Shown piece by piece: positions 7,467 through 11,916 of a stretch of DNA of 11,916 bases. The position numbers and the translations under genes are program-made. How positions within the stretch are numbered: the stretch's first letter is position 1; the number at the start of each line of letters is the position of its first letter. The DNA comes from a bacterium (GTDB lineage: Bacteria; Coprothermobacterota; Coprothermobacteria; Coprothermobacterales; JAADFF01): contig JAMORD010000028.1 in NCBI GenBank assembly GCA_027063755.1, forward strand, positions 1 to 11,916. Direction: 5' to 3'. The notes under the pieces were generated by a model. That model worked only from the letters and a program-made list of their open reading frames with translations, ran no database searches and had not been told where the DNA came from.

Positions 7467-7492
7467 AAAAGCGGAGGTTCCCCTCCGCTTTT
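7467..7492 (-). terminator. Intrinsic terminator after fliD
   Basis: On the minus strand the stem GCGGAGG / CCTCCGC is perfect, the loop is GGAA (a GNRA tetraloop in this orientation), and it is followed by TTTTGTTG; flanking AAAA/TTTT extends the stem to 11 bp. It lies 32 nt after the fliD stop, so it should end the fliS-flaG-fliD transcript. The A/T flanks make it nearly symmetrical, but no plus-strand gene ends here, so only the minus orientation has a use. Confidence 0.85.
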
Positions 7493-7523: not shown

Positions 7524-9068
7524 TTAGTACATAGTTCCGCCAAATATACCCTGCATCTGACTAACCTGCTGTTTTAGCTCCATACTCATAGCCATAAGAT
7601 TACCAAGCTGCTCTCTATACATCTGCTCTTTTACATCAAGCATCTTTTTCAGTGTCTCAATACGCTCATCAATGTAATCTTTGCGTTTATTGAGACTATT
7701 GATACGGGTGGTAAATAAACCACTGACAGAATCCACATACGCCTCTAATTTCTTTTCAAGCCTCACAAATATACCGTCTTCTGGATCACCTTTTTCTATG
7801 CTCTGTGTAAAAACTTTAATAATCTTTTCTCTATCTTCTTCTGAACCATTAAGCATGTTGCGAATAATAGAAGAGTCAAAGGTTAGGTTGCCTTCCTTAT
7901 CAAATGTGATACCAAGTTTCTCGCCAGTGAAAGTTTCAGATTCATCACCCACAGTAACCTTAACAGCTGCGGTCATAGCCTCGCGAATGGCGTAAAGTGT
8001 CATTCTAATACTGGTATCGTTGGCAAGCACACCTCTTTCAGCCTTGTCAGAACCGGCAAATGTATATGCACGAATCTTGGCATTAAGCTCGGTAAACTTA
8101 CTCATAAAATCTTCTATTTTCTTCACAACATTGTCAACATTTTTTCTTATAGAAATCGTTGTTTTACCAGTACCCTTAACGGTAATAGTAGCGCCCAATA
8201 TACCATCAGATATGGTATTATCCGTATCTTTTATTGGAACACCACTTAAAACCGCATCAAGATTAAGCCAGTCATAGTCAAAAGTAGTTCCAGTCTCCCC
8301 TTCAGGTGCAATAGAGCCACCGCTATTGGCATCACTAGGATCATATATCTTTGTAAGGTCATCAAGTGCCAAATCAGACCATAAATTACTATCATTATAT
8401 GTATTTCCTCCATCGGTACTTTCCTCAGCAGACATACTATCTATAGCCTTCTCTGAACCAACCGATGTTGCGTATATACTCAACCTGATATTATCGGGAT
8501 CGGTTCCAATAACAACGGCTTTTACACCGGCTCCTGATGTAGAGTTAACAGCATCGGCTATCTTTTTCAAAACATCTACATTCTTGGACTCATTATCCGT
8601 GGTTACATCACTAAGATCAACCTCAACAGTAGAGTCCGTACCATCTTTTAAATTGAATGTTAGCTTGAGTTTCTTACCGCCATAAGCCTCAACAAGATTG
8701 GTATCTTCTTTAGACACCTGTTTAGAAATCACCCTATGGGCTGTAGCCACCCTGTTAACCTGAAGCTCCCACACGCCTTCGGTTGCCGAGGAACTGACAC
8801 TAACAGAAGCGATATTATCATCAGATATAGAAACCTGTTTATCACGCCAAGCTCCAAGCACAGGATCTGCCAAACTATGGGCCAAGTCTTTCATTGAAGA
8901 CAAAATACCTTTAATTTCATTAAGTGCTTTTACCTGCCTATCTATCTGACTTTTCTGATTATTTAAAAGGTCAATAGGTTTTCTTGCCGGTGCAAGCAAA
9001 GCATTAATGTATTTATCAACCATTTCACGGGTTGCCAGTGGATTAAAACCTCCTACACCGGAAATCAT
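7524..9068 (-). CDS. fliD: Flagellar filament cap protein FliD (HAP2)
   Basis: A 514-residue filament cap protein; a pentamer or hexamer sits at the filament tip and folds incoming flagellin. The N-terminal D0/D1 part (about 1-100) contains NPLATREMVDKYINALL and a coiled-coil region with QKSQIDRQVKALNEIK. The centre (about 110-320) is Ser/Thr/Asp-rich and variable, as expected for surface-exposed D2/D3 domains. The C-terminal D1/D0 region has the long helix with SGLFTTRINSLNKRKDYIDERI and later LKQQVSQMQG. The frame is open to GTG 9074, but ATG 9068 has GGAGGT exactly six bases before it and is the better start, leaving 2 nt after the flaG stop. A terminator follows 32 nt downstream. Confidence 0.96.
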   Translation of the reverse strand: MISGVGGFNPLATREMVDKYINALLAPARKPIDLLNNQKSQIDRQVKALNEIKGILSSMKDLAHSLADPVLGAWRDKQVSISDDNIASVSVSSSATEGVWELQVNRVATAHRVISKQVSKEDTNLVEAYGGKKLKLTFNLKDGTDSTVEVDLSDVTTDNESKNVDVLKKIADAVNSTSGAGVKAVVIGTDPDNIRLSIYATSVGSEKAIDSMSAEESTDGGNTYNDSNLWSDLALDDLTKIYDPSDANSGGSIAPEGETGTTFDYDWLNLDAVLSGVPIKDTDNTISDGILGATITVKGTGKTTISIRKNVDNVVKKIEDFMSKFTELNAKIRAYTFAGSDKAERGVLANDTSIRMTLYAIREAMTAAVKVTVGDESETFTGEKLGITFDKEGNLTFDSSIIRNMLNGSEEDREKIIKVFTQSIEKGDPEDGIFVRLEKKLEAYVDSVSGLFTTRINSLNKRKDYIDERIETLKKMLDVKEQMYREQLGNLMAMSMELKQQVSQMQGIFGGTMY

Positions 9069-9070
9069 GT

Positions 9071-9487
9071 TCACACCTCCTTATCCAGGAGGAAGAACCC
9101 TATCTTCTCCAAGAGCTCTTTATATAATCTCAACAATTTTTCTGGCGGAATTTCTTTGATAACCTTTTTTGTGCGTTTATCTTCAAAGACAATCTGCATT
9201 CCCAGTATAAGATCAGGAATGTCTTTGTAGTGTTTTATCTTCACATCAACAGATGCATCAAGTGTCTCCAAGATCTTCCTAATACGATTAACCATGTTTT
9301 CTACGTCTTCTTTTGTGAGGGGCTTTGTTTGATTGGCATCAAGATAAGCGTTGTATCTACTTGCTTCTTTTACAAGACGATCACCAAGGGAGTACAGCTG
9401 CATAACCTCTCCAACCCCGCGAGATGGCGTCTCAAAATCTGCCCGTTCTATTCCACTAATTCCCTCTATAAACTCTCTTCCTGCCAT
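9071..9487 (-). CDS. flaG: FlaG family flagellar protein
   Basis: A 138-residue protein whose C-terminal half carries the FlaG pattern: a strand pair QIVFEDKRTKKVIKEIPPEKLL at about 98-119 followed by an amphipathic helix and a terminal GFFLLD. FlaG proteins are linked with filament length control and are usually encoded beside fliD, as here. Residues 25-75 form a helical, charged N-terminal extension with no recognisable domain. There is no signal peptide. ATG 9487 has GGGGTGAT five bases upstream, partly inside the last fliS codons; 6 nt separate fliS and flaG, and 2 nt separate flaG and fliD. Confidence 0.88.
   Translation of the reverse strand: MAGREFIEGISGIERADFETPSRGVGEVMQLYSLGDRLVKEASRYNAYLDANQTKPLTKEDVENMVNRIRKILETLDASVDVKIKHYKDIPDLILGMQIVFEDKRTKKVIKEIPPEKLLRLYKELLEKIGFFLLDKEV
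9075..9080 (-). promoter_or_regulatory. Shine-Dalgarno fixing the fliD ATG at 9068
   Basis: GGAGGT on the minus strand lies inside the last flaG codons. It is six bases from ATG 9068 but directly abuts the alternative GTG at 9074, so it supports the ATG. Confidence 0.75.
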
Positions 9488-9493
9488 AACTCA

Positions 9494-9850
9494 TCACCCC
9501 TCCGATACCTCCTCGGTGCTTTCCTCAGAGGTTTTCTTGAAAAACGCCTCCTCCCAGGCATCCCTGAGAGGTTTAATCACATTAAGAGCCTCTTCTAAAT
9601 TACCCTCATGTATCTGTCTTAATGCATATTCATACAGGGAGAGCAAATTGGTTGCCAGTGTGCCACCTCTCTCAAAATCAAGCGAATCTATGAGCTCCCT
9701 AATACCCGCACGGGCTTTAACGGTATCACCTTTTTTCAAAGATGCAATAATAAGGTCGTATATCATTAGCACCAGCTTTACAGGTGATGCATTCTTTACT
9801 TCCTCTTCAATGTATCTCTTTCTAACCCTCTGATATGCTCCATATGGCAT
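9494..9850 (-). CDS. fliS: Flagellar export chaperone FliS
   Basis: A 118-residue helical chaperone that binds the C-terminus of newly made flagellin, prevents its early polymerisation and presents it to the export gate. The N-terminus has YGAYQ at 3-7 and the core motif NASPVKLVLMIYD at 20-32, both typical of FliS; LRDAWEEAF near 95-103 matches the last helix. The tail is Glu/Ser-rich. Longer readings from 9877 or 9856 exist, but ATG 9850 has GGAGGG six bases before it and gives the usual MxYxAYQ beginning. The gene is first in the fliS-flaG-fliD unit, with a sigma28-like promoter just upstream and an inverted repeat that includes the ribosome binding site. Confidence 0.95.
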   Translation of the reverse strand: MPYGAYQRVRKRYIEEEVKNASPVKLVLMIYDLIIASLKKGDTVKARAGIRELIDSLDFERGGTLATNLLSLYEYALRQIHEGNLEEALNVIKPLRDAWEEAFFKKTSEESTEEVSEG

Positions 9851-9854
9851 AATC

Positions 9855-9895
9855 ATCCCTCCTTTTCTACTCTTCATTTATATAATCGGAGGGAT
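9855..9895 (-). repeat. Inverted repeat enclosing the fliS ribosome binding site
   Basis: On the minus strand ATCCCTCC (9895-9888) and GGAGGGAT (9862-9855) are perfect 8-bp complements separated by 25 nt. The second arm contains the GGAGGG Shine-Dalgarno of fliS. The first arm overlaps the stop codon of the upstream ligase-like gene and the -10 region of the sigma28-like promoter. There is no T-run after it and the loop is long, so it is not a terminator; it could hide the fliS start in read-through RNA. Confidence 0.6.
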
Positions 9896-9908
9896 CATAT
9901 ATTTCTTA
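9882..9908 (-). promoter_or_regulatory. Candidate sigma28 (FliA/SigD) promoter for fliS-flaG-fliD
   Basis: On the minus strand TAAG, 15 bases, then CCGATTAT. The known sigma28 consensus is TAAA, about 15 bases, (G)CCGATAA/T, so three of four -35 bases and the CCGAT core match at correct spacing. The predicted transcript start, near 9875, is about 25 nt before the fliS ATG. The -35 lies in the last codons of the ligase-like gene. Late genes such as fliS and fliD are commonly read by sigma28, which supports the call. Confidence 0.55.
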
Positions 9909-11916
9909 ACTGCCCCAGCTTAATCTTGAGAAACATTTCATCAACAAATGCGGGATCGGCATCTTTGTAGTAATTTTCATAGAATCTAAGCCACTTCTTT
10001 GCTTCAGCATGTCTCCCCTGCTGCACCAAACAGAAAATATACATTTTCATAAGATTGGGCGATACTCTTCCTGCCTGCCAAGAAAGTCTTCCCTTAGCGT
10101 GGCCATCAATATCAAAGTCTTCTGGCATATCATCTGTCTTCAGAACAAACTGCCTACTGGTTTTCACGGCATCATAAAAGACATCTTTCATATGCTCGGC
10201 AAATGTATCTGGATCCTCCGAGTACTTAGCATGAATAATCGTTTCCAATATACGACAGGCCCTATCCCAATCTTTGATATTACCGGCAAAATTGGCATAG
10301 GTGCTGATAGTAGCCTCATTAAATGGATTAAGCTCCATAGATTGCTCAAAATAATATAGTGCTTTTTCAAGACACTCTTTGCACCCTAACCTGTATAGAG
10401 TGCCATATGCATATCCCAAATATGCTAAAAACGAATCGGGATAGTTGGTAATCCGTATGTGGTCCTCGTATTCAGTTATACTTGTGGCCAATTTTGCAGC
10501 TAAAGCTGGTGAGGAACCCTTGGCATCTAAAACCTGTATATACTTCACAACAACTTCAGAACGCCAAACAATGTTATGGTCTGGAAATGGGCATATAGCA
10601 AGTGACCTATCTGCCTCCTCTCTTGCCATATCAAGACCTCTTGGAATAATAGCCCTTGCCAGTCCCTTATACATATCTGCCACATATCTAAACAATGTCA
10701 ACAAAACAATCAACAGCAAAATGGCATCTACAACATTAACAGCCCATAATGGCATGTTATATACACTTGTGTGTGTAGTCCATACCACACCCCATAGATA
10801 TCCCATAGATATAACAAAGGTAATATCCCAAAACAGGAAAAGGAGAACACTCATGATAACCAAAGCAATGAGAGCCACAGCAGGATACGACATGAAATTC
10901 TGTCCTACAGGATACATAAGATATGCAAGCAGAGCCAACCAGATAATACCACCTTCTATAAGAATATCCACATACATATTATGACTACGATCATAGCCCT
11001 TTGTATGCTCCGCATAGTAGGTTTCAATAGCCCTATGTTCTATGAGATACCTTCTTACATACTCAAAACCGAATCCCCACAATGGAGATTTTAGCCATGT
11101 TCTTAAACCAGACAACGCCAAATACCATCGTGTTGTGGCAGTTGAAATGGCAAAAAATTTAATTTGGGGATGCACATCTATCTTCTTTAAACGACGAGCA
11201 TATAACAGCGGGAAAATACTTCCTCTAATCCTTCTTGATATAGTCCCTTTACCATTTAATATTATCCATCCTACAATAACTAAAAAGCCATAATATATCA
11301 ATATCCAATACCACGCAAAGTGAAAATCCAAAAACAGAAACACAGGAAGTAAAAGAGCATATACCAACACGCCAATAATAACGGAACGCTTAGTATTATA
11401 TAAAATAGATAACACCAAGACAGTTGCTACCGACCATATAACCCACAATGGTACATTTAGATTATAAAGGGCCCATACTGCAAGTAAACTGGCCATAAAC
11501 AAGTTGAGATTAAAAGTTAAAGGATTGCCTATCGTGCCAAGATATGTTCCTGGATGAAATTTTAAATTCTCTAACTTCAACTGAAAGCCTTTGCCAGAAA
11601 CCTGCAACAAGTATATGAGAAAGTGTAAAAGTGCATAGAACAGCACTATATACATAAAATCTTTCTGGGATATTAGTTTATATGACAAGAGCCAATAAAT
11701 CCATAAACCAAACAAAATCGCATACAGATATGTGGTCGCCCCCAAAACACGCTCTTCTGTTCCCATATATGAAAGCCATGACCTGATACCCCTAAAGGCA
11801 AGCATAACAATAACAACAACCCCAATAACAACCGCCCATGGTACAAGTACACTCTCTACTCTATTTCCCCAAAGATATGCCGTCATCCCTACGTATAAAG
11901 AAAATATATACAGGGT
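9895..11916 (-). CDS. O-antigen ligase/Wzy-type polytopic membrane protein with C-terminal TPR-like domain (5' end outside window)
   Basis: At least 663 residues; the frame is open to the window edge (10 more hydrophobic codons before ATG 11886, which has only a TAGGG abutting it), so the true start is probably beyond 11916. Numbering from that ATG, about ten membrane segments span 12-400. GTIGNPL at 117-123 and the loop with Arg253 (TTRWYLALSGL), PLWGFGFEYVRR and DRSHNMYVDILIEGG (His302) match the Wzy_C pattern, in which Arg and His in an outer loop are needed for glycan transfer from a lipid carrier. Residues about 420-660 are soluble and helical, with a TPR-like unit (about 485-525, ending MELNPFNEAT). 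Family members ligate or polymerise surface glycans or transfer them to proteins; the substrate is not visible here. It ends 44 nt before fliS. Confidence 0.75.
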   Translation of the reverse strand, partial: TLYIFSLYVGMTAYLWGNRVESVLVPWAVVIGVVVIVMLAFRGIRSWLSYMGTEERVLGATTYLYAILFGLWIYWLLSYKLISQKDFMYIVLFYALLHFLIYLLQVSGKGFQLKLENLKFHPGTYLGTIGNPLTFNLNLFMASLLAVWALYNLNVPLWVIWSVATVLVLSILYNTKRSVIIGVLVYALLLPVFLFLDFHFAWYWILIYYGFLVIVGWIILNGKGTISRRIRGSIFPLLYARRLKKIDVHPQIKFFAISTATTRWYLALSGLRTWLKSPLWGFGFEYVRRYLIEHRAIETYYAEHTKGYDRSHNMYVDILIEGGIIWLALLAYLMYPVGQNFMSYPAVALIALVIMSVLLFLFWDITFVISMGYLWGVVWTTHTSVYNMPLWAVNVVDAILLLIVLLTLFRYVADMYKGLARAIIPRGLDMAREEADRSLAICPFPDHNIVWRSEVVVKYIQVLDAKGSSPALAAKLATSITEYEDHIRITNYPDSFLAYLGYAYGTLYRLGCKECLEKALYYFEQSMELNPFNEATISTYANFAGNIKDWDRACRILETIIHAKYSEDPDTFAEHMKDVFYDAVKTSRQFVLKTDDMPEDFDIDGHAKGRLSWQAGRVSPNLMKMYIFCLVQQGRHAEAKKWLRFYENYYKDADPAFVDEMFLKIKLGQLRNI

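Follow-up and report, generated by a model that had tools for sequence, protein, structure and literature searches.

Can the promoter of a late flagellar operon also carry the RNA arm that hides the ribosome-binding site of the gene it serves? The question is raised by the start of fliS, the flagellin chaperone gene, in the window analysed here, a stretch of 11,916 nucleotides that makes up contig C28 of a fragmented 1.5-Mb genome (designated G000). On its minus strand, a perfect 8-bp inverted repeat, ATCCCTCC and GGAGGGAT with a 25-nt spacer, has its downstream arm over the fliS Shine-Dalgarno (SD) sequence, GGAGGG (9862-9857), placed 6 nt ahead of the ATG (Table 1). The original prediction had described this repeat, and a recheck of the sequence gave the same arms, spacer and SD position to the nucleotide. 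An intrinsic terminator was considered for the hairpin and rejected, because no U-tract follows it. For comparison, we used one congener (G001) and five genomes of the sister family (G002-G006), fliS being present in all seven genomes.

Table 1. Features of the fliS region, in coordinates of the window
Feature	Positions	Strand	Remarks
Wzy-like O-antigen ligase/TPR membrane protein gene	9895-11916, runs off contig	minus	PF04932 (Wzy_C), E 8.8e-10, plus weak TPR
-35 element of sigma28 type, TTAAG	9905-9909	minus	within the last codons of the wzy-like gene; in register with the TAAA of flagellin and flgM
Stop codon (TGA) of the wzy-like gene	9897-9895	minus	ribosome terminating here expected to shield arm 1
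Arm 1, upstream anti-SD arm, ATCCCTCC	9888-9895	minus	shares one base with the stop codon and TCC with the -10 element
-10 element of sigma28 type, TCCGATTA	9883-9890	minus	TCCGA(T/A) here in 7/7 genomes of the order with fliS
Predicted sigma28 +1	9876, plus or minus 2	minus	from the -10 position
Arm 2, downstream arm with fliS SD, GGAGGGAT	9855-9862	minus	
fliS, flagellin chaperone	9494-9850, ATG at 9850	minus	PF02561, E 2.4e-17
flaG	9071-9487	minus	own open SD
fliD, filament cap, last gene of the late module	7524-9068	minus	start taken as ATG 9068; the ORF list has GTG 9074
Terminator-like hairpin, AAAGCGGAGGGGAACCTCCGCTTT then TGTTGTATAAT	7468-7491	minus	closes the fliS-flaG-fliD module; kept in G001

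A late sigma28 promoter ahead of fliS is well supported by comparison of orthologous leaders. In the window and in G001, the sequence reads TTAAG-N14-TCCGATTA, which agrees with the sigma28 (FliA/SigD) consensus TAAA-N14/16-(G/T)CCGATAA found ahead of late flagellar genes. The same TCCGA(T/A) class of -10 element precedes flagellin and flgM genes, with TAAA-N14/15-TCCGATAA or TCCGATAT at the flagellin promoters of the genus and TAAA-N15-TCCGAATA at flgM in the sister family. All five sister-family copies of fliS have TAA-like boxes with TCCGAACA or TCCGAATA, placed identically relative to the stop codon and the SD. The promoter thus sits where it had been proposed, recurs before fliS in seven of seven genomes and resembles the promoters of flagellin and flgM genes in the lineage. 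FliA-like sigma genes are present and score below the TIGR02479 cut-off. The genome-wide pattern TAAAN{13,16}TCCGATW showed no enrichment over a backward control, and assignment to the regulon was therefore based on orthologous leaders. With CGATTA as -12 to -7, transcription is predicted to start near 9876, as compared with 9875 in the original prediction. This position falls between the arms (9888 and 9862), and sigma28 RNA should lack arm 1 because that arm lies upstream of it.

Two further observations concern the same leader. An in-frame ATG lies at the predicted sigma28 start (9877-9875, MKSRKGGMIMPYG...) and is kept in G001; a leaderless, longer FliS is possible if the RNA starts at 9877. 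Besides, an AGGGATG at 9860-9854 overlaps the fliS SD and fits ARGGAUG, which we take to be the core CsrA motif. The genus of the window encodes csrA and a fliW-like gene, and leaders of the sister family are devoid of AGGGATG.

For the second RNA species, gene order is the starting point. The minus strand carries the wzy-like/TPR gene, fliS, flaG, fliD, a weakly FliT-like ORF, a lipoprotein-like ORF and then basal-body genes identified by translation (flgB, flgC, fliE, fliF, fliG, fliH and fliI, all on the minus strand). The gap between the wzy-like stop codon and fliS is 44 nt, and no terminator was found there in the window sequence. From this order and this absence, we infer that transcripts of the wzy-like gene may read through into fliS. 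The contigs of G000 and G001 both end within the wzy-like gene, leaving its own promoter outside the available sequence. The wzy-fliS adjacency is also present in the sister family, in which the cluster, as read, runs che-sigma-flgM-flgN-flgK-flgL-csrA-(wzy-like)-fliS-fliC-flaG-fliD; in the genus of the window, the che-to-csrA cluster is located elsewhere and terminates at csrA.

Some features of the surrounding cluster deserve mention in their own right. A large Wzy_C/TPR membrane protein adjoins fliS inside the flagellar cluster across the order (9895-11916 in the window; L026:8697-10601 and L027:8446-10362 elsewhere), and the sister-family copies match TPR models only. It may take part in glycosylating flagellar or surface structures. 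A flagellin gene sits between fliS and flaG in the sister family (L043, L045, L046), while the genus of the window has several dispersed flagellin-type genes (L047-L059) and none within the fliS cluster. Downstream, the terminator-like hairpin marks the boundary between the late module and the basal-body genes. TATAAT comes directly after it, and the sister family has TATGyTATAAT-like sequences in the corresponding position. By its sequence, the 7491-7437 stretch is a probable start of the basal-body operon; its SD, GGGGAGGG, can pair with CCTCC of the terminator 3' arm, and the stretch from hairpin to SD is strongly kept in G001.

In the mechanism that we propose, the sigma28 promoter of the fliS-flaG-fliD module, overlying the end of the wzy-like gene, would have its spacer and -10 element double as an anti-SD arm. 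RNA started by sigma28 would carry a leader of 26 nt, leave the SD open and be freely translated. Read-through RNA from the wzy-like gene would carry arm 1, fold into the 8-bp hairpin and hide the SD, so that fliS would be poorly translated from it, mainly when a ribosome finishing at the wzy-like stop codon pulls arm 1 out. Folding predictions agree with the earlier expectation that the SD is masked in the one RNA and free in the other. Predicted SD pairing in read-through versus sigma28 RNA is 1.00 versus 0.11 at 37 C and 0.99 versus 0.06 at 75 C for G000, and 1.00 versus 0.03 at 37 C and 1.00 versus 0.05 at 75 C for G001.

Temperature could have abolished such a structure. The organism probably lives in heat, as suggested by the finding of a reverse gyrase and by the IVYWREL rule, a rough guide that gives about 69 C for the genome of the window and about 61 C for G002 and that returns an implausible 27 C on the small G004 sample. 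We had expected the hairpin to melt out at growth temperature, and this was rejected: the predicted masking persists at 70-80 C, the SD of read-through RNA remaining 0.99-1.00 paired from 37 to 80 C. The isolated hairpin is predicted to weaken with heat, from -13.0 kcal/mol at 37 C to -4.1 at 70 C and -1.8 at 80 C. We put slightly short of an even chance on an effect of the hairpin in living cells, by which fliS would be translated less from read-through RNA. Expression of fliS may in this way be delayed to the late stage; that the hairpin was selected for a function is less likely than the translational effect.

Read-through RNA would not be simply silent. A ribosome at the wzy-like stop codon had been anticipated to cover the upstream arm, and when it was modelled as a block of 9912-9884, its footprint reached the inhibitory arm 1 and predicted SD pairing dropped from 1.00 to 0.10-0.21. 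As the terminating ribosome opens the hairpin in the model, translation of fliS from this RNA would follow that of the upstream gene. Translational coupling could even be the selected function, fliS being initiated on read-through RNA only with a ribosome terminating upstream, FliS being tied to translation of the wzy-like gene and the sigma28 start acting as an independent boost. The opening of the SD in the constraint fold and the contact between stop codon and arm 1 across a 44-nt gap speak for this, as does the Escherichia coli rpmI-rplT precedent, where RNA is unfolded at +52 nt (PMC12548453). We nevertheless regard it as improbable, given that wzy-like gene and fliS are also adjacent in the sister family without the hairpin, that coupling works best when stop and start codons lie close together (PMC12548453), which they do not at 44 nt, and that there is no obvious need to match the amount of FliS to a membrane ligase. 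Still less credible, and very improbable in our judgement, is a ribosome termination structure that would insulate fliS from re-initiating ribosomes. Structures directly behind stop codons are reported to reduce re-initiation and to occur, in a species-dependent way, in 18-66% of genes, with a preference for the ends of operons (PMC7518266); the wzy-like gene, by contrast, is followed by a flagellar gene on the same strand, whose SD is at the centre of the hairpin.

Returning to the masking of fliS in read-through RNA, the neighbouring genes limit what such a gate could achieve. At 70 C, the flaG SD is predicted to be open (0.33 paired), and that of fliD to be partly paired by another structure (0.83), so the gate would act first on the chaperone gene. 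This counts against gating, because flaG is also a late gene and the gate would not extend to the whole module; holding back fliS alone makes limited sense.

How far is the repeat conserved? Between G000 and G001, both arms are identical and the inter-arm spacer has three changes; a 36-nt block covering the -35 region (GGGCAG...TATAT) is also identical. Fourfold-site divergence between the two genomes is 0.30 in fliS and 0.50-0.69 in its neighbours. Among the eight bases of arm 1, TCCC (9894-9891) alone is free of constraint from the stop codon and the -10 element, so conservation in a single genome pair says little. With arms identical in both sequences of the genus, compensatory change cannot be seen; a search for further relatives yielded G001 only among genome contigs and none among viral contigs. 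Arm 1 is absent from all five sister-family genomes, where promoter and SD are kept, and predicted SD pairing there changes little with the RNA form, at 0.1-0.6 in read-through versus 0.03-0.5 in late RNA at 65-75 C. The original prediction had named loss of the arms in close relatives that retain the SD as evidence against it; such loss is seen at family distance and not in the congener, which makes the hairpin a genus-level trait at most.

The absence of arm 1 from the sister family also fits a neutral reading, in which the hairpin has no role. The TCCGAT of the -10 element holds a partial anti-SD that, with two or three additional C bases in the promoter spacer, would pair with the purine-rich SD; as the working mRNA lacks everything ahead of its start point, such pairing would not be selected against. 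How unusual the pairing is was judged against 325 same-genus genes, drawn from about 350 kb of genome stretches. For two of them, fliS being one, SD pairing was predicted to change by 0.9 or more at 70 C when read-through RNA was compared with RNA having a 25-nt leader. Four other start sites in this set have complements of 8-10 nt with smaller predicted changes. In the genes of the genus whose SD is GGAGG (n = 125), Watson-Crick complements of the SD do not exceed 6 nt over the 60 nt upstream, fliS excepted. When the 60 nt upstream were shuffled with dinucleotides preserved, the observed pairing was matched in 3/4000 sequences. It was matched in 20/4000 (0.5%) with the -10 element kept, which speaks against a neutral origin, but pairing of at least 0.99 was reached in 279/4000 (7%) with that element fixed, which speaks for one. 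The repeat is unusual, yet the promoter itself supplies part of it, the -10 element contributing three bases of arm 1 (TCC).

Other leaders of the genus favour the neutral reading as well. One flagellin gene has CCTCCG at its -10 element and CGGAGG at its SD in both genomes (leaders L047 and L048), and its upstream neighbour is divergent, so such pairing arises without expected co-directional read-through. The sole other strong case of SD masking among the 325 genes (L102, minus strand, start at about 2659-2660 of the reverse complement) also has a pyrimidine tract, CCCTTCCC, just upstream of a possible -10 element, followed by GGGAGGGATTAGTTATG. Against the neutral reading, the fliS arm is longer than the 5-6 bp at other sigma28 promoters, and the fliS promoter spacer is unchanged in G001, in contrast to two pairs of flagellin promoters whose spacers have diverged. 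Together with the shuffles in which the -10 element was fixed, the flagellin control brings the neutral reading close to the regulatory one in likelihood, and we consider the former a serious contender that falls somewhat below an even chance. As a separate observation, the L047 and L048 flagellin leaders contain an additional hairpin, GGCTCCCCAAGGATGGGGAG.

Start-site-dependent masking of an SD, the regulatory reading, is known from phage T4, in the leader of gene e (lysozyme) and also in soc, 49 and I-TevI, and the gene e layout can cut translation 100-fold (PMC3014915). The parallel with gene e drawn in the original prediction agrees with the same source. In both cases, a long RNA started upstream masks the SD, a late RNA starts past the 5' arm with the SD open, and the 5' arm is encoded within the late-promoter region; as far as folding models go, the fliS case works like gene e on paper. 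It differs in that fliS is a chromosomal flagellar gene read by sigma28 instead of the phage late sigma factor gp55, that its arm 1 touches the upstream stop codon, with coupling possible, and that the arrangement is not kept beyond the genus. The rpmI-rplT pair similarly has a structure over the downstream ribosome-binding site that is opened by upstream ribosomes (PMC12548453), at +52 nt as compared with 44 nt here, whereas fliS has an internal late promoter giving RNA that bypasses the structure. In Bacillus subtilis, CsrA-FliW controls the translation of the flagellin gene hag (PMC6529632). Late flagellar control at the level of translation would be common to hag and fliS, and the genus has csrA and fliW-like genes, but the repressor is a protein there and an RNA arm here.

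In the same vein, Salmonella flgM is transcribed both as class 2, with its upstream operon, and as class 3, from its own sigma28 promoter. fliS resembles it as a late gene with reading from an upstream operon and a sigma28 promoter of its own; to our knowledge, no start-site-dependent SD hairpin of the fliS kind is known for flgM-type genes of Salmonella. Judged by titles and abstracts, the bacterial literature on start-site-dependent SD masking offered colicin E2 and a cyanobacterial sRNA study, both with a different layout, and the titles and abstracts on read-through with an anti-SD gave no match.

To conclude, the logic of T4 lysozyme may have been put to use for flagellar timing on the chromosome of a bacterium predicted to grow near 70 C, with a late start deleting the masking arm and the chaperone being made only from late RNA or from RNA whose upstream gene is under translation; we consider this full scenario unlikely. 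If it is false, the locus is a warning that CC-rich -10 elements readily pair with SD sequences and mimic a riboregulator. If it is true, sigma28 would act twice on a late flagellar gene, through RNA synthesis and through RNA shape, with no protein regulator, and -10 elements resembling an anti-SD could act likewise in any operon with internal promoters.
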